Origin: Herpetosiphonaceae bacterium
Lineage (GTDB): Bacteria; Chloroflexota; Chloroflexia; Chloroflexales; Kallotenuaceae
Length of the DNA: 41,399 nt
Assembly (NCBI GenBank): GCA_013821605.1
Contig: JACDGP010000041.1
Location: 1-41,399, forward strand
Reading direction: 5' to 3'
The notes below the pieces were generated by a model, which had not been told where the DNA came from, did not search any database, and worked only from the letters and a program-made list of their open reading frames with translations. Position 1 is the stretch's first letter; each line of letters starts with the position of its first letter. Shown piece after piece: positions 22,452 to 29,679 of the stretch. The position numbers and the translations under genes were made by a program.

Positions 22452-22492
22452 GCCAACCGGAACGTGCTATCATGAAGAGCTAAGGAGTGCAT

Positions 22493-23140
22493 ATGCACGA
22501 ACTGCTTGCGTTATTTCCGCTGCACATGGTCCTGTTTCCCGGCGAGTTGCTGCCATTGCGCATTTTCGAAGAGCGCTATAAGCAAATGATCGGCCAATGC
22601 CTTACTCGCCAGGAGCCCTTCGGCGTAGTGCTGATTCACTCAGGTGCCGAGGCCTTCGGCGAACTCGCGCGACCACATAGTGTCGGCACATCCGCCACGA
22701 TCATTGATGCCATTCGCTTCGAAGATGGCCAGTATTATATTGCGACGCAGGGCGGTCCGCGCTTTCGGGTGCATGAGATCGTCGAGGACGCACCATATTT
22801 GGTGGCAGCCGTCGAATTTTTGGAGGATGAGGTCGATTCGGAATGCCAGATCCAGGCAGATCACCTGCGCGAACTGTATAATCGTTATCGTAGTGCTGCT
22901 CCGATCATTACGAGCTCAGCACAGCCACTTGCCGACCTGCCACTTGATCCGATCGAGCTTTCCTTCCGTTTATCGGAACAACTACAGGTCACGGACGAAT
23001 CCAAGCAACATCTGTTGGAAGCCGATCTCGAAACCCGGCTGGAGGCACTAACCGCAGCCCTTGAGGAAGAGTTACGTATGCTGCCGCCGGTCTCCGGCAC
23101 ACCGAAACAGCATCTTGATGGACCGTGGTCCCTTAACTGA
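22493..23140 (+). CDS. Lon-protease N-terminal (LON substrate-binding) domain protein
   Basis: A 215-residue protein consisting of the LON N-terminal domain only. Visible are LFPLHMVLFPGELLPLRIFE, ERYKQMIGQCL, FGVVLI and GTSATI, followed by the helical bundle. There is no ATPase or protease part, so it is a stand-alone substrate-binding protein of the YloA/LonN sort common in bacteria; its role is not known. I use the ATG at 22493 with AAGGAG six bases upstream rather than the GTG at 22487. It follows cca after 41 bases and precedes DUF503 by 4 bases. Confidence 0.9.
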   Translation: MHELLALFPLHMVLFPGELLPLRIFEERYKQMIGQCLTRQEPFGVVLIHSGAEAFGELARPHSVGTSATIIDAIRFEDGQYYIATQGGPRFRVHEIVEDAPYLVAAVEFLEDEVDSECQIQADHLRELYNRYRSAAPIITSSAQPLADLPLDPIELSFRLSEQLQVTDESKQHLLEADLETRLEALTAALEEELRMLPPVSGTPKQHLDGPWSLN

Positions 23141-23144
23141 AACC

Positions 23145-23429
23145 ATGATTATTGGTAGCCTAACGATCCAACTCCGTTTACCACTAGCTCATTCGCTGAA
23201 AGAGAAGCGTTCCGTCGTCAAGTCGGTGCTCGCGAAGCTACGTAATGAATTCAATGTGTCGGTCGCGGAGGTCGCCGAGCAGGACCGCTGGCAAACGGCA
23301 GTCATCGGGGTAGCGAGCGTGTCCAGCGACGCGCGTTATACGCGTGAGCAACTGCAAGCCGTAGTTAATTGGGTCTATGAGCATCGTCCAGATGTCGAGG
23401 TGACCGCTACCGAGATCGAACTGTTGTGA
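23145..23429 (+). CDS. DUF503 (YlxP-like) protein
   Basis: A 94-residue ferredoxin-like-fold protein of the DUF503 family. Characteristic text is MIIGSLTIQLRLPLAHSLKE, then KRSVVKSVLAKLRNEFNVSV and AEVAEQDRWQTAVIGVASVS. Family members are often found near rbfA and translation genes; the function is unresolved. The length is complete. The next gene's ATG overlaps its stop (TGATG). Confidence 0.92.
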   Translation: MIIGSLTIQLRLPLAHSLKEKRSVVKSVLAKLRNEFNVSVAEVAEQDRWQTAVIGVASVSSDARYTREQLQAVVNWVYEHRPDVEVTATEIELL

Positions 23430-24478
23430 TGCACGATCAGGTCGGGCTGGCAGTGTTCCCTTTCCCGGCGATTGTGGCGCAAGAAGAATTAAAACTGGCG
23501 CTGCTGCTGGTGTTGGTCAATCCTGCGATTGGCGGTGTCCTGTTGCAAGGACCCTACGGCGTCGGCAAAACAACCGCTGTACGGTCGCTGCTCGATCTGC
23601 TACCTCCCGTTGAGCAACCCGTATGTGAACGCGGCTGTCGGGCAGACGATCCCGCCGGGCAGTGCGCCGACTGTCGTGAGCGCGTCAGTAAGGGTCAAGC
23701 GCTCACGCTGGTTGCCTCAGTGCGGTTGATCGAACTGCCCCTAACGGCGCGGATCGAAGATGTTGTCGGCGGCGTTAATGAGCGGGTGGCGCTCGAACAA
23801 CGGCGGGTTTTGCTTGAGCCAGGCGTGCTGGCGACGGCCCATAATAACCTGCTGTATGTCGATGAGGTCAATCTGCTCGATCCGCCCGTGGTCGACGCCA
23901 TCCTGGATGCCGCCGCACAGGGCCGGACCTTTGTGCGGCGTGGTCCGATGGTACGTTTATTCCCATCGCGCTTCGTGCTAATTGGCTCAATGAATCCCGA
24001 AGAAGGCCGCCTGCGCCCCCAAATCATGGACCGCTTTGGCCTCAGAGTGTGGGTTGGGCCGGTCGCAGAGCGTCCGGCACGTTTAGCAGCAGCGCGCCAT
24101 GTCCGCGCCTTTAGCGCTGATCCTGAAGCTTTTCGGGCCCGTTTCGACGTGCAGACTGCAGCTCTGGCCCGGCTCGTCGCCGCTGCTCGCACGGCCTTAC
24201 CCGCGATCAATCCGACGACGGCGGCGGAAGAAACAGCCATCGCCCTAGTTGATGCCCTCCAGATTCCTTCGCACCGCGCCGAAATCACGATGCTGGAAGC
24301 GGCACGAGCTCATGCGGCGCTGGCAGCGCGCGATGTGGCCGAGGTCGCTGATATCGAGGCAGTAGCATTGCTGACGCTACGCCAGCGGCACTCGCCTGCA
24401 CTGGCTGCCGCAGCCGAGCGGGTGGGAGTGGAGGATGCGGCACTACGTCAGGTGATGAACGTGCTGCTCCCTAGTTGA
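23429..24478 (+). CDS. ChlI/BchI-like AAA+ ATPase (magnesium-chelatase subunit I family)
   Basis: A 349-residue MoxR/helix-2-insert type AAA+ protein. Walker A is LQGPYGVGKTTAVRSLL and Walker B is LLYVDEVNLLD. The sensor/arginine region is GSMNPEEGRLRPQIMDRFGL, and a C-terminal lid ends SPALAAAAERVGVEDAALRQ. A short cysteine-bearing insert (CERGCRADDPAGQCADCRER) lies between Walker A and the next strand, as in ChlI proteins. In photosynthetic bacteria ChlI drives metal insertion into protoporphyrin with ChlD and ChlH; here no ChlD/H is near. A stand-alone ChlI-like ATPase for another metal chelatase or a VWA-protein partner is as likely. The start overlaps the DUF503 stop. Confidence 0.88.
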   Translation: MHDQVGLAVFPFPAIVAQEELKLALLLVLVNPAIGGVLLQGPYGVGKTTAVRSLLDLLPPVEQPVCERGCRADDPAGQCADCRERVSKGQALTLVASVRLIELPLTARIEDVVGGVNERVALEQRRVLLEPGVLATAHNNLLYVDEVNLLDPPVVDAILDAAAQGRTFVRRGPMVRLFPSRFVLIGSMNPEEGRLRPQIMDRFGLRVWVGPVAERPARLAAARHVRAFSADPEAFRARFDVQTAALARLVAAARTALPAINPTTAAEETAIALVDALQIPSHRAEITMLEAARAHAALAARDVAEVADIEAVALLTLRQRHSPALAAAAERVGVEDAALRQVMNVLLPS

Positions 24479-25065: not shown

Positions 25066-25875
25066 ATGATCGATTTCGACGCCTTTGCCCGGCTCTATGA
25101 TGCTGACTACGGCTCTTTCACCGCCGACCTCGATCTGTATCTCCAATTTGCGCAGCGTACCGGCGGGCCGATCCTGGAGGCGATGTGCGGAACGGGCCGG
25201 GTGCTAGTACCCCTAGCTCAGGCCGGGCACGCTGTTGTGGGCGTTGATATTGCTCCGGCGATGATCGGGCTAGCTCAGGCGAAAATCGTGGCTGCCGGCC
25301 TTCCCCACGCACGTGCAGAGGTTGGCGATCTGCGCGGCCTAGCCCTACCAGAACGCTTTGCCATGGCCTTGATTGCCATGAACTCTTTTATGCACCTTGC
25401 GACACCGTCGGATCAACTGGAGGCCCTGGAGCGTCTGCACGAGCATCTCCGACCGGACGGGTTGCTGATCCTTGATCTCTTCAATCCCGATCCACGTGAG
25501 TTGGTGGCCGACGAGGGGCTGCTGGTGCATGTGAACAGCTTCACGTTCGAGGAGCAGTTGGTGCAAAAGTATATGCTGCGCCGTACGAATGTAGCCGAGC
25601 AAACGCATTACGTCGAATTCATGTATGATGAAATTGGTGCGGACCGGCTGCTTAAGCGCTCGGTGTTGCCATTCACGATGCGCTGGATCTACCGGTACGA
25701 ACTGGAATATTTACTCGGCCACGCCGGCTTTACGCTCGAAGCGATCTACGGCTCCTATGAGCTCGATCCTTATACGAGTGATAGTGAGCGACTCCTGGCA
25801 GTCGCCCAGCCACTACGACGAGCACGCGGGAGCACGGCCCAGTGGAGGAGACGAAGGGACGAACGGACGTTATGA
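25066..25875 (+). CDS. Class I SAM-dependent methyltransferase
   Basis: A 269-residue Rossmann-fold methyltransferase. SAM-binding motif I is ILEAMCGTGRVLVPLAQAGH, followed by the acidic loop VVGVDIAPAMIG, the AEVGDLRGL segment and the LLILDLFNPDP strand. The substrate domain ends with YRYELEYLLGHAGF and SDSERLLAVAQP, as in small-molecule type methyltransferases. The tail is Arg-rich (TAQWRRRRDERTL). Substrate unknown. It overlaps the next gene by 4 bases (ATGA), which implies translational coupling to the Rieske-like protein. Confidence 0.9.
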   Translation: MIDFDAFARLYDADYGSFTADLDLYLQFAQRTGGPILEAMCGTGRVLVPLAQAGHAVVGVDIAPAMIGLAQAKIVAAGLPHARAEVGDLRGLALPERFAMALIAMNSFMHLATPSDQLEALERLHEHLRPDGLLILDLFNPDPRELVADEGLLVHVNSFTFEEQLVQKYMLRRTNVAEQTHYVEFMYDEIGADRLLKRSVLPFTMRWIYRYELEYLLGHAGFTLEAIYGSYELDPYTSDSERLLAVAQPLRRARGSTAQWRRRRDERTL

Positions 25876-26387
25876 ACGAGTACGCACGCGATCTGCGCGA
25901 AGCGCGACAACGGCAGATCATGTATGGCATTTTTGCGGTTGGGATGGTTGCCTCGCTGGTGATCTGTGTGGGACTGCTGTATGCGATGACGAGGCAGACC
26001 CCCAAGCTGGTGCGACTGGGACCGGTCACAAAGTTTGTGGCCGGCCAGCCCGTTGATGTAGCGGTCAAGGAGCTTGAAACATCCAAGCTGATCCCCAACC
26101 GCTCGGTGCTGAGTGAAGATGTGATTTATGTCGCCAAACAGGCGGATGGCAGCTACCAGGCACTCCTGGGTGTCGATCCAGTGAACGGCTGCTTTTTGAG
26201 TTGGCACACGGATCAGCAGCAGTATCGGGCCGGGTGCACCGATGCCACCTATGACATTAATGGGCTTAATCAGAACCGGCTTGCGACCAGTACCAGCAAA
26301 CCGGTCGATATGGTTGCGCTACCGACTCAAGTTCAAGCCAACCAGCTATTCTTGGAAGATCGGATCCAGCACCGTAATATTCGTTGA
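25872..26387 (+). CDS. Membrane-anchored protein with a ligand-less Rieske-like domain
   Basis: A 171-residue protein with one N-terminal membrane helix (about 19-40, GIFAVGMVASLVICVGLLYA), so residues 41 onward are probably outside the membrane. The body follows the Rieske iron-sulfur pattern: an early beta part (PVTKFVAGQPVDVAV), then at 102-107 DPVNGC where Rieske has C-T-H-L-G-C, then FLSWHTDQQQYRAGC (108-122) where Rieske has L-x-W----F-C-P-C, and TYDINGL where it has x-F-D-x-x-G. By this alignment both cysteine and both histidine cluster ligands are replaced (Asp102, Val104, Ala120, Thr123), but the two structural disulfide cysteines remain (Cys107, Cys122). It cannot bind a normal Rieske cluster if this alignment is right. 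Function unknown; it is coupled to the methyltransferase before it. Confidence 0.68.
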   Translation: MNEYARDLREARQRQIMYGIFAVGMVASLVICVGLLYAMTRQTPKLVRLGPVTKFVAGQPVDVAVKELETSKLIPNRSVLSEDVIYVAKQADGSYQALLGVDPVNGCFLSWHTDQQQYRAGCTDATYDINGLNQNRLATSTSKPVDMVALPTQVQANQLFLEDRIQHRNIR

Positions 26388-26465: not shown

Positions 26466-27635
26466 ATGTCCAATGTTGCACAAGATGAGCTTTCCGACGA
26501 GTTACACGCTAGCTACCTCTATGGTGGGCCAGGAGTTGAGGAAGAAGACACGAGTGGTGGAGGCATGACATCCCCGTTCGATCCGACATTGATTCGCGTC
26601 GAGACCAGGCCATTGACGATCGATTTGTTGCTCGCCCGTATCCGCGAGAACGAACTAGACATGGCACCCGACTTCCAGCGCAAAGGTGGTATTTGGAGGT
26701 CAGATACGATGAGTCGGCTCATCGAGTCGATCTTGATTCGTATTCCGCTGCCCGCGTTTTATATGGATGCTACTAACGATGATCGCTGGGTCGTTGTCGA
26801 TGGCTTACAACGCCTGACGACACTCAAACGGTTCGTCATCGACAAAACCCTCAAGCTCACCGGCCTGGATTTTCTTGAGTCGCTCGAAGGCAAGTCCTTC
26901 GACGAGATACCACGCAATTATCAGCGACGAATCCTTGAGACTCAAATCACAGCGTATCTCATCTCACGTGGTACTCCGGAGGAAGTCAAGTTCAACATCT
27001 TCAAGCGGATCAATACGGGTGGGTTGCCGTTGTCCCCACAGGAGATTCGTCATGCACTCAATCAAGGCCCAGCTGCACGCCTCATCACGCGCTTAGCGCA
27101 AACGGAGGAGTTCAAGTGCGCCACAGCTTGGGGGGTCTCCGACGATCGTATGGCAGATCGTGAATTCGTGCTGCGATTTCTGGCATTTACAATCACACCC
27201 TATACCGAGTATAAAGTCAAGGACTTCGACAAGTTCTTGAATGATGCTATGGCGAGAATGAATAAGATGAGAAGCAGGGAACTAGAGGAGCTAGAGCAAC
27301 AGTTCCTGCGCGCCATGAATGCCGCTACAGGAATCTTCGACAACGAAGCCTTCAGGAAGCGATATAGCCCAAATTCGCGGCGCAAACTGATCAATAAGCC
27401 ATTGTTTGATACATGGTCAGTTAATTTGAGCTCTCTCAACGATGAGCAACTGCGGCAGCTTGAGCAACGCAAGTTCATTCTACGCAGCCGTTTCATTGAC
27501 TTGCTGAATGAGCAGCGTACCTCCGAGCATCCTGTTTCGTTTGACGACTCCATTTCGTTCGCAACAGGCGATATTCTCAAGGTCCGAATGAGATTCAGTC
27601 GCATTCAGGAGCTGATTCAGGAGGTGCTTACATGA
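26466..27635 (+). CDS. DUF262 (ParB/GmrS-like) domain protein, first gene of a putative defence operon
   Basis: A 389-residue protein with the DUF262 motifs: MAPDFQRKGGIW (67-77), RIPLPAFYM, VVDGLQRLTTL (110-120; usual form DGQQRLTTL) and FKRINTGGLPLSPQEIRHAL (179-198). DUF262 domains share the ParB-like nucleotide-binding fold; in GmrSD-type systems they act with a DUF1524 HNH nuclease. Here the C-terminal ~180 residues are helical and show no DUF1524 H-N-H pattern, so no nuclease is visible in this protein. The ATG at 26466 has AAGGGG about 9 bases upstream. Its stop overlaps the next ATG (ATGA). The first 45 residues are a Gly/Glu-rich tail. By eye, composition is less GC-rich than the genes before it, hinting at acquisition. 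Confidence 0.9.
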   Translation: MSNVAQDELSDELHASYLYGGPGVEEEDTSGGGMTSPFDPTLIRVETRPLTIDLLLARIRENELDMAPDFQRKGGIWRSDTMSRLIESILIRIPLPAFYMDATNDDRWVVVDGLQRLTTLKRFVIDKTLKLTGLDFLESLEGKSFDEIPRNYQRRILETQITAYLISRGTPEEVKFNIFKRINTGGLPLSPQEIRHALNQGPAARLITRLAQTEEFKCATAWGVSDDRMADREFVLRFLAFTITPYTEYKVKDFDKFLNDAMARMNKMRSRELEELEQQFLRAMNAATGIFDNEAFRKRYSPNSRRKLINKPLFDTWSVNLSSLNDEQLRQLEQRKFILRSRFIDLLNEQRTSEHPVSFDDSISFATGDILKVRMRFSRIQELIQEVLT

Positions 27636-28756
27636 TTCGAACATTACACTTACACAACTTTAAGTGCTTCGCAGATCAGTCCCTTGAGCTTGGGCCGCTC
27701 ACGCTCCTGTCAGGTCTTAATGGCATGGGCAAATCGTCCGTCATCCAATCGCTGTTGCTGCTTCGCCAGTCGTATCAACAGGGTCTGCTTGATGATACAG
27801 GTTTAGCTCTCAATGGCGATCTTGTGCACTTGGGCACGGCTACAGACGTGTTTTACGACAAAGCTCAAGATGATATTCTGCGTTTTGAGCTTGAGCTTGA
27901 CAACGGCATAAGTGGTCGCTGGCAATTCAACTACGACACGCTGGTTGATGTGATGCGCCTCCTGGGAGGGCATGGTGCTAATGGTATTTATGGCTCGAGC
28001 TTGTTCAGCGATGAGTTCCAGTATCTTCAAGCTGAGCGGATTGGCCCGCGTACATCATTTGCTATCTCCGATTATGTGGTGCGCCAGCACCGACAGTTGG
28101 GACCACAAGGCGAATTCACGGCCTATTTTCTCTCGCTGTTCGGCAATCAGGATGTCGAGAACAGCAGCTTGCATCATCCCACTGCCATGTCATACAGCCT
28201 CATTAATCAGGTAGAAGCGTGGATGGGCGAAGTCTCACCAGGGACTCGGCTGCATCTGACGGCAAATCCGGATATGGATTTGGTGAGCTTGCGCTTTTCA
28301 TTTGTGTCTGGGACGCAAGCGAGCAATCCGTTCCGTGCGACCAATGTCGGCTTCGGTCTCACCTACACCCTTCCGATCCTTGTTGCGGCCTTATCAGCTA
28401 GACCAGGCTCACTCCTACTCCTCGAAAATCCCGAAGCACATTTGCATCCGAAGGGTCAGTCACTTATGGGTGAGCTCTTAGGGCGGACAGCTCAAAGTGG
28501 CGTGCAGGTTATGATCGAGACGCATAGTGACCACGTACTGAACGGTATTCGCCTAGCTGTCCACGGTGGTAAGCTTGAACCTGAAAACGTACGGATGCAC
28601 TTCTTCGATAGGCAAGTTCGGCAAGACGAACCGGTGCATATCGTTGCATCGCCACTCATTGACCGTGACGGCAGGATCGATTTTTGGCCGGAGGGGTTCT
28701 TCGATGAGTGGGATAGGAACCTCGAAGTATTGTTGGAGCCAAGGAGCGAGGCATGA
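27632..28756 (+). CDS. AAA ATPase with DUF3696, second gene of a putative defence operon
   Basis: A 374-residue SMC/OLD-like ATPase. Walker A is SGLNGMGKSS (27-36), after the typical LHNFKCFADQSLELGPLTLL start. Walker B is LLLLENPEAHLHPKGQ (261-276), with the ABC-like block FRATNVGFGLTYTLPILVA before it and ETHSDHVLNGIR (296-307) after it. The C-terminus is DUF3696: DGRIDFWPEGFFDEWDRN (346-363). No TOPRIM or other nuclease domain follows. DUF3696 ATPases occur in several defence-linked gene sets. It shares ATGA overlaps with both neighbours, so the three proteins are made in fixed ratio. It probably hydrolyses ATP as a sensor or switch for the system. Confidence 0.92.
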   Translation: MIRTLHLHNFKCFADQSLELGPLTLLSGLNGMGKSSVIQSLLLLRQSYQQGLLDDTGLALNGDLVHLGTATDVFYDKAQDDILRFELELDNGISGRWQFNYDTLVDVMRLLGGHGANGIYGSSLFSDEFQYLQAERIGPRTSFAISDYVVRQHRQLGPQGEFTAYFLSLFGNQDVENSSLHHPTAMSYSLINQVEAWMGEVSPGTRLHLTANPDMDLVSLRFSFVSGTQASNPFRATNVGFGLTYTLPILVAALSARPGSLLLLENPEAHLHPKGQSLMGELLGRTAQSGVQVMIETHSDHVLNGIRLAVHGGKLEPENVRMHFFDRQVRQDEPVHIVASPLIDRDGRIDFWPEGFFDEWDRNLEVLLEPRSEA

Positions 28757-29679
28757 CCTTAGAAATGGTGATGAACGAGCTCTCGCTGCGAACGCCCGCT
28801 GCAGACGTTAGAACAGCACAGCAGCGGATGATGGATCTCGTTGCAACGCTACGTGAGGCGCGCAAGCAACGAATCACAGTGCTTCGTACACATGAGGCTT
28901 TCCAGCAAACACTCCTCGCTCCCAACTACCTTCTCGTTCAATGGCGTAATGATCCAAGTGTCGACCGTGACACCAGAACATTTTTCCGAACCATTTCAAG
29001 CAAAAGCCCATACCTAGCAGATTTGCCCGATGTTGAGGAAGCTATGCGTGCCTATGAGTGTATATATGACGGCGAGTTGGCGCAGGGGCTTAGTATCGCT
29101 TCCCAGCTGAGCGCAATTGCTCTTAGCGTCCTATCAAATCAATGTTGGGATTGCAGCCGGATAAATTTAGAAGCATCGCAGCTCGATGATAGCGGCGAAA
29201 TCGTAACCAGCCAAATAGAGGTTATTCATGCTGCACGAGCGCCACATATACTGGAACACTTACCTTGGATCGAGCAGCATCGGCAGGTTGATGTACGCGA
29301 CGGCATGGATTTGTGGGGCCAACGCGAAGAGCTATTTCCGAATCTGGCCTTCTGTGAAGATGTTCGAAGGCAACTGCAGCAGTTACGTATGGGCAATCCG
29401 ATGCTAGAACTTGTGCTAAAACATATTGCTGAACTTCAACACTACGCGGAGTCGTGGCAGAGCGGCTCGTTCGACTACACCAAAATTCCGGGCAAAGTAT
29501 CGCCCGAAAGCGAATCAACTCTCAATCAATTTAGCAAAGAGCGTACGTTCCGCTGTCCAGATGGTCAAGAGCGTGTCTTTAGCTGGCATCTCAAGATCAA
29601 TTGGCAGGCATGGCGTATTCACTTCATCCCAGAGCCAGGAAAAATAATCATCGGCTATGTTGGTCCACACCTTCCTTGA
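28753..29679 (+). CDS. Protein of unknown function, third gene of a putative defence operon
   Basis: A 308-residue protein that I cannot place in a named family. It has a helical N-terminus (to about 60). Next comes a segment with PNYLLVQWRNDPSVDRDTRT, then a central part with NQCWDCSR and SQLDDSGEIV. A distinct C-terminal module follows with RTFRCPDGQERVFSWHLKIN, then WRIHFIPEP and IIIGYVGPHLP. A similar C-terminal module (strand, F-P-D/E turn, I-G-Y-x-G-x-H-L-P) recurs at the ends of small phage-defence-associated and RelE-like proteins; I cite it from memory and hold it loosely. No membrane helix. It may be the effector, since the first two genes look like a regulator and an ATPase. Starts at ATGA overlapping the ATPase stop. 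Confidence 0.8.
   Translation: MTLEMVMNELSLRTPAADVRTAQQRMMDLVATLREARKQRITVLRTHEAFQQTLLAPNYLLVQWRNDPSVDRDTRTFFRTISSKSPYLADLPDVEEAMRAYECIYDGELAQGLSIASQLSAIALSVLSNQCWDCSRINLEASQLDDSGEIVTSQIEVIHAARAPHILEHLPWIEQHRQVDVRDGMDLWGQREELFPNLAFCEDVRRQLQQLRMGNPMLELVLKHIAELQHYAESWQSGSFDYTKIPGKVSPESESTLNQFSKERTFRCPDGQERVFSWHLKINWQAWRIHFIPEPGKIIIGYVGPHLP

Follow-up and report, generated by a model that had tools for sequence, protein, structure and literature searches.

A Rieske-fold membrane protein family of Chloroflexales without iron-sulfur cluster ligands

The genome of a bacterium deposited as Herpetosiphonaceae bacterium (GCA_013821605.1; placed by GTDB in the Kallotenuaceae) encodes a 171 aa membrane protein in which all four positions that would bind a [2Fe-2S] cluster carry other residues, and in which the two disulfide cysteines are kept. 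On the basis of profile comparisons and predicted fold, the protein is a member of the Rieske fold superfamily. Its gene (25872–26387, + strand, start ATG, stop TGA) lies in the window, by which we mean the whole 41,399-nucleotide stretch of contig JACDGP010000041.1 that was analysed. The protein belongs to a methyltransferase-type family, here termed dead-1. Members of this family are cofactor-less derivatives of an electron-transfer fold; the ligand loss is real, and a non-redox interpretation of it is supported. We assign a probability of roughly 60% to the reading that dead-1 is a cluster-free, Sec-exported Rieske fold that now serves a non-redox purpose, as a docking or structural module.

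Rieske homology and predicted fold

The AlphaFold2 model, built from a nine-sequence alignment, predicts a helix (residues 2–40) followed by a beta-rich domain. Together with hydropathy and column conservation, it places a single predicted N-terminal membrane helix at about residues 17–40 (25920–25991, +). Within this helix, Cys32 (25965–25967) occupies an alignment column that is conserved across dead-1; this cysteine is absent from dead-2, a second group of ligand-less proteins.

Annotation of the single sequence overlooks the Rieske relationship, as the window protein alone has no match in Pfam; against the NCBIfam b6f Rieske models it reaches only E 0.06. Using hmmsearch, a profile of the family identifies b6f Rieske chains in the PDB at E 1.8e-5 without any ligand-retaining relative, and at E 1.6e-7 when a relative with a clear motif is included. 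All PDB matches of the family profile with E <1 are Rieske proteins. Comparison of the family with nine live Chloroflexota Rieske proteins using hhalign gives 97.4% (E 1.4e-11, 78 columns). Both profile alignments are gap-free inside the motifs, with D102, V104, A120 and T123 at the four ligand positions and C107 and C122 at the disulfide positions, which is the register that had been set by eye in the first-pass annotation. W111, also placed correctly by eye, aligns with a conserved W/F of live Rieske proteins.

The predicted model (mean pLDDT 84.7) has the three-layer beta fold of Rieske proteins. The PDB entries that Foldseek ranks highest are all Rieske-fold proteins, including arsenite oxidase Rieske subunits, b6f and bc-type Rieske proteins, dioxygenase ferredoxins and NirD-type subunits. 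The best VIA-align match is 9rk4 (Z 13.4, 2.2 Å over 101 residues), and Z values are about 10 or more among the 50 entries listed. Structure prediction and Foldseek comparison had been proposed as checks on the first-pass annotation, and they return the fold that it had suggested.

Ligand loss, cysteine retention and selection

In place of the canonical two Cys and two His, the window protein has D, V, A and T, distributed over motif 1 (D102-P-V104-N-G-C107) and motif 2 (A120-G-C122-T123-D-A). The codons at the former ligand positions, all on the + strand, are those of Asp102 (26175–26177, first Cys ligand), Val104 (26181–26183, first His ligand), Ala120 (26229–26231, second Cys ligand) and Thr123 (26238–26240, second His ligand). 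Those of the disulfide positions, also on the + strand, are Cys107 (26190–26192) and Cys122 (26235–26237). Among 15 aligned ligand-less sequences, ligand Cys is retained in 0/30 cells and disulfide Cys in 29/30, a pattern that exceeds chance. The disulfide pair is invariant in dead-1; more widely it is mostly kept or lost together, and in one protein (L067 of G012) both disulfide cysteines are lost too. The earlier claim that every ligand was replaced and both disulfide cysteines remained is thus borne out in the window protein, and the proposed alignment of homologues finds the cysteines at the disulfide positions there as well. No member of the methyltransferase-linked family retains the ligands, and two more distant relatives (L020 and L056) keep a single His.

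Strong purifying selection acts on the protein, and it is not a pseudogene, as indicated by dN/dS values of 0.03–0.09 in all 15 pairs of six Herpetosiphon orthologues. The open frame is intact in 14/14 genomes with a full-length dead-1 gene.

The first Cys-ligand position is Asp in all dead-1 proteins and in 14/15 aligned dead sequences, and position 120 is Asp in 11–12 of the 15. As a change from Cys to Asp requires two base changes, the conserved Asp suggests selection. The main rival reading is that these Asp residues bind another cation (e.g., Ca2+ or Mn2+) in a metal-dependent binding or sensing domain, and a lone metal ion does replace the cluster in the plant protein mFDX-like (PMC10069907). 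This reading is weakened by Ala at 120 in the window protein itself and in G437, the exceptions to Asp at the second Cys-ligand position within dead-1. Moreover, Asp may merely accept backbone NH bonds formerly taken by cluster sulfur. We therefore regard cation binding as unlikely, although worth entertaining. Somewhat more doubtful still is its fuller form, in which an Asp-for-Cys Rieske family that binds a different cation would have changed from Tat to Sec export and become a metal-dependent domain for binding or sensing outside the cytoplasm.

The retained cysteines permit another alternative, that the C107–C122 pair, perhaps with the membrane Cys32, performs extracellular thiol-disulfide redox work. 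The invariance of the pair and the conservation of Cys32 in dead-1 are compatible with such activity, but live bc-type Rieske proteins normally have this pair as their structural disulfide, there is no CXXC motif, and Cys32 is missing in dead-2. We consider this role improbable. In the preferred, non-redox reading, the disulfide would be structural.

Export signal

Live Rieske proteins are Tat substrates, as documented for Shewanella PetA (PMC3623810), and carry the Tat motif because they receive their cluster in the cytoplasm and are exported folded. The Tat signal S/T-R-R-x-F-L is absent from the window protein, in which a Tat scan found no RR pair ahead of the membrane helix. A Tat-like motif occurs in 24/26 live proteins vs 1/16 dead proteins examined (Fisher p 2e-8, a value that overstates independence because the sequences are related). 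L228 of family f30, a separately degenerate Rieske protein, likewise has no Tat motif; L031 of family f13, with one ligand changed, retains it (S-R-R-D-F-I). From these sequences, we infer that Sec replaced Tat once the cofactor had been lost. Strong purifying selection and loss of the Tat signal together support the first-pass proposal that the fold is kept for something besides electron transfer.

Distribution and origin

A search of a public genome collection with the window protein alone found no relative; dead-1 loci were recovered through alignment of the methyltransferase. Across the 82 Chloroflexales genomes searched, dead-1 is present in 15. Five genomes of the window's own family (f1) encode it in full length, and in a sixth (G005) only the C-terminal part is present, at the edge of a contig. 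It is also encoded in 8/9 Herpetosiphonaceae (f2) genomes (the completeness of the ninth is 76%) and in a single f4 genome, G437. Identity among dead-1 proteins of different genera is low.

Other ligand-less Rieske proteins were identified. The window's own genome encodes a paralogue that belongs to dead-2 (L056, identical to L159 and L074; contig C235, 6789–7364, − strand), with the motifs D-T-F-R-G-C / D-P-C-H-G-S; its gene adjoins beta-propeller-like and sigma-factor-like genes. L020 of G005 has D-P-R-S-G-C / D-P-C-H-G-S. With one His kept in D-P-C-H-G-S, the sequences of L020 and L056 look like intermediates. Further ligand-less relatives are encoded in G426 (two, in tandem), G420 and G027 (D-P-C-Y-G-S), and L255, from another family outside the order, has S-S-D-T-G-C / D-P-C-H-G-S. 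Also present are degenerate Rieske proteins of other kinds. L228 and L229 (f30) have S-T-H-M-R-C / S-P-C-D-G-S and keep the disulfide cysteines, and in L031, L032, L035, L037 and L039 (f13; C-T-H-L-G-C ... S-P-C-H) the one ligand replaced is the second Cys, by Ser.

A DNA pattern encoding F-[IVM]-D-P-C-[HY]-G matched 4/400 genomes, the matches being the window's own paralogue, L255 and two chance matches. A phylum-wide dead-2 profile ranks ordinary Rieske proteins highly and is thus no gauge of the frequency of dead Rieske proteins.

In a tree calculated with the ligand columns removed, dead-1 forms one clade (100/99) and dead-2 another (97/90). Dead-2 groups with cytochrome bc-operon Rieske proteins and dead-1 is not beside them. 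The two dead groups are joined at 99/94 when the ligand columns are kept; without these columns their union is not recovered, and a tree constrained to place them together is not rejected (p-AU 0.245). The separate position of dead-1 in the ligand-column-free tree does not bear out its descent from the bc-operon Rieske clade. Profile similarity points to a b6f-type Rieske protein as the probable ancestor of dead-1.

Methyltransferase and other neighbouring genes

The gene immediately upstream encodes a class I SAM-dependent methyltransferase (25066–25875, +; Pfam Methyltransf_25, E 1.5e-17), and its stop codon and the start codon of the dead Rieske gene overlap in the sequence ATGA (25872–25875). 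This order is kept in 13/13 full-length loci of f1 and f2, with an overlap or a gap of at most about 60 bases. The closest solved relative of the methyltransferase is CorZ (9sot, E 3.4e-54), an enzyme that methylates the peptide myxarylin at its N-terminus, and there is a weaker match to a daptide methyltransferase model. It is conceivable, then, that the Rieske-fold protein is a substrate or partner of the enzyme, for example by being methylated at its N-terminus. However, the methyltransferase gene is present in 75/80 Chloroflexales genomes, most of them without dead-1. Where inspected, it has other neighbours: in Chloroflexus a FabZ-like gene comes next, and in Chloroploca a GDP-mannose dehydratase-like gene in convergent orientation. 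Dead-1 N-termini also vary (M-N-E, M-Y-Q, M-L-P, M-L-D). We think a substrate or partner relationship improbable, to about the same degree as thiol chemistry. The translational coupling to a methyltransferase pointed out in the first-pass annotation is therefore real and conserved in two families, but as evidence of joint function it is weak, given that the methyltransferase is a core Chloroflexales gene and that dead Rieske genes elsewhere are otherwise flanked. As a definer of function, the methyltransferase is weakened by its presence in genomes without dead-1.

Elsewhere, gene names having been assigned by eye, dead-1 of G437 lies between citrate synthase-like and histidine kinase-like genes, and dead-2 of G027 adjoins RNA-methyltransferase-like genes. 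No single neighbour accompanies the gene throughout the group, and none can therefore be named as its partner. These varying neighbours count against the docking account.

Among the window ORFs, no cytochrome b gene was found beside the dead Rieske gene. In G002 and G021, a true b6f-type Rieske gene adjoins cytochrome b-like and cytochrome c-like genes (named by eye), and true Rieske genes are also present in the window's own genome. Thus, other genes take care of electron transfer.

The window contains other genes of interest. Three overlapping genes of lower G+C content (26466–29679) encode a GmrSD_N-domain protein, an AAA ATPase with weak likeness to MAD3/PtuA, and an unassigned protein; this looks like a defence cassette inserted directly after the methyltransferase-Rieske pair. 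A lone chelatase-type AAA subunit (23426–24478) resembles the N-terminal part of a putative cobaltochelatase, and matches TIGR02442 at E 1e-91, yet far under the cut-off of that model. Also encoded is a short protein (22487–23140) that matches Lon protease models in its N-terminal part only (E 1.5e-7).

Proposed role

In the reading that we favour, a single N-terminal anchor would bear a Rieske-fold domain that no longer binds [2Fe-2S]. With no cofactor to be inserted in the cytoplasm, Tat would be dispensable and export would probably occur by Sec, placing the domain outside the cytoplasmic membrane. A C107–C122 disulfide could tie together the two former cluster loops, so that the fold would survive without iron. 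The domain, which is kept by selection, would then be a non-redox module; its likeliest function is that of a docking or structural subunit in some assembly of the membrane or envelope. Docking, which names no partner, is the least specific of the non-redox roles. There is a precedent in plants, where mFDX-like, one of whose cluster ligands is gone, has a structural role in complex I (PMC10069907), and by this comparison docking or structural reuse is the least demanding account.

Two further possibilities have little to recommend them. The predicted fold is intact, and Asp ligates iron-sulfur clusters in some proteins, so that [2Fe-2S] might still be bound via unusual ligands. However, in dead-1 the residues at 104 (V/K/Q/L/E) and 123 (S/T/L; mostly Ser or Thr) are unlikely ligands for the second iron, and the Tat signal has been lost; we judge continued cluster binding very improbable. 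Loss of every ligand and the low identity between genera could suggest a decaying Rieske pseudogene, an idea to which the dN/dS values, the open frames and the tightly kept operon leave almost no credence.

Comparison with known systems and implications

The protein can be compared with three known systems. Like the Rieske proteins of cytochrome b6f and bc complexes (PetC, QcrA; 2e74, 1vf5, 9rk4), the window protein has the Rieske fold, an N-terminal anchor, the GC...W...C spacing and the two disulfide cysteines; unlike them, it has no cluster ligands and no Tat signal, and is not encoded beside cytochrome b. The Rieske fold is also shared with NirD-type Rieske_2 domains (3c0d, 4aiv; Z 9.8), although no member of the window family matches Pfam Rieske_2. 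NirD is likewise described as lacking the cluster ligands, and cluster loss is known for NirD-type Rieske subunits, but in contrast to the membrane-anchored window protein, NirD forms part of an enzyme as a soluble, cytoplasmic subunit. Plant mFDX-like is similar in being an electron carrier that no longer binds a cluster and has been retained for a structural role in a respiratory complex (PMC10069907); unlike dead-1, it has a different fold, belongs to a different kingdom and has a known partner. In the open-access literature, we found no direct precedent for ligand-less Rieske proteins, and no membrane-anchored respiratory-type Rieske protein with all ligands lost, the disulfide kept and Tat dropped.

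The dead Rieske proteins are natural experiments that bear on why folded cofactor proteins need Tat. They also inform how a fold can persist once its cofactor is gone and how parts of respiratory systems are put to new use, and they bring a caution for annotation: relatives of the b6f Rieske protein need not be electron carriers.
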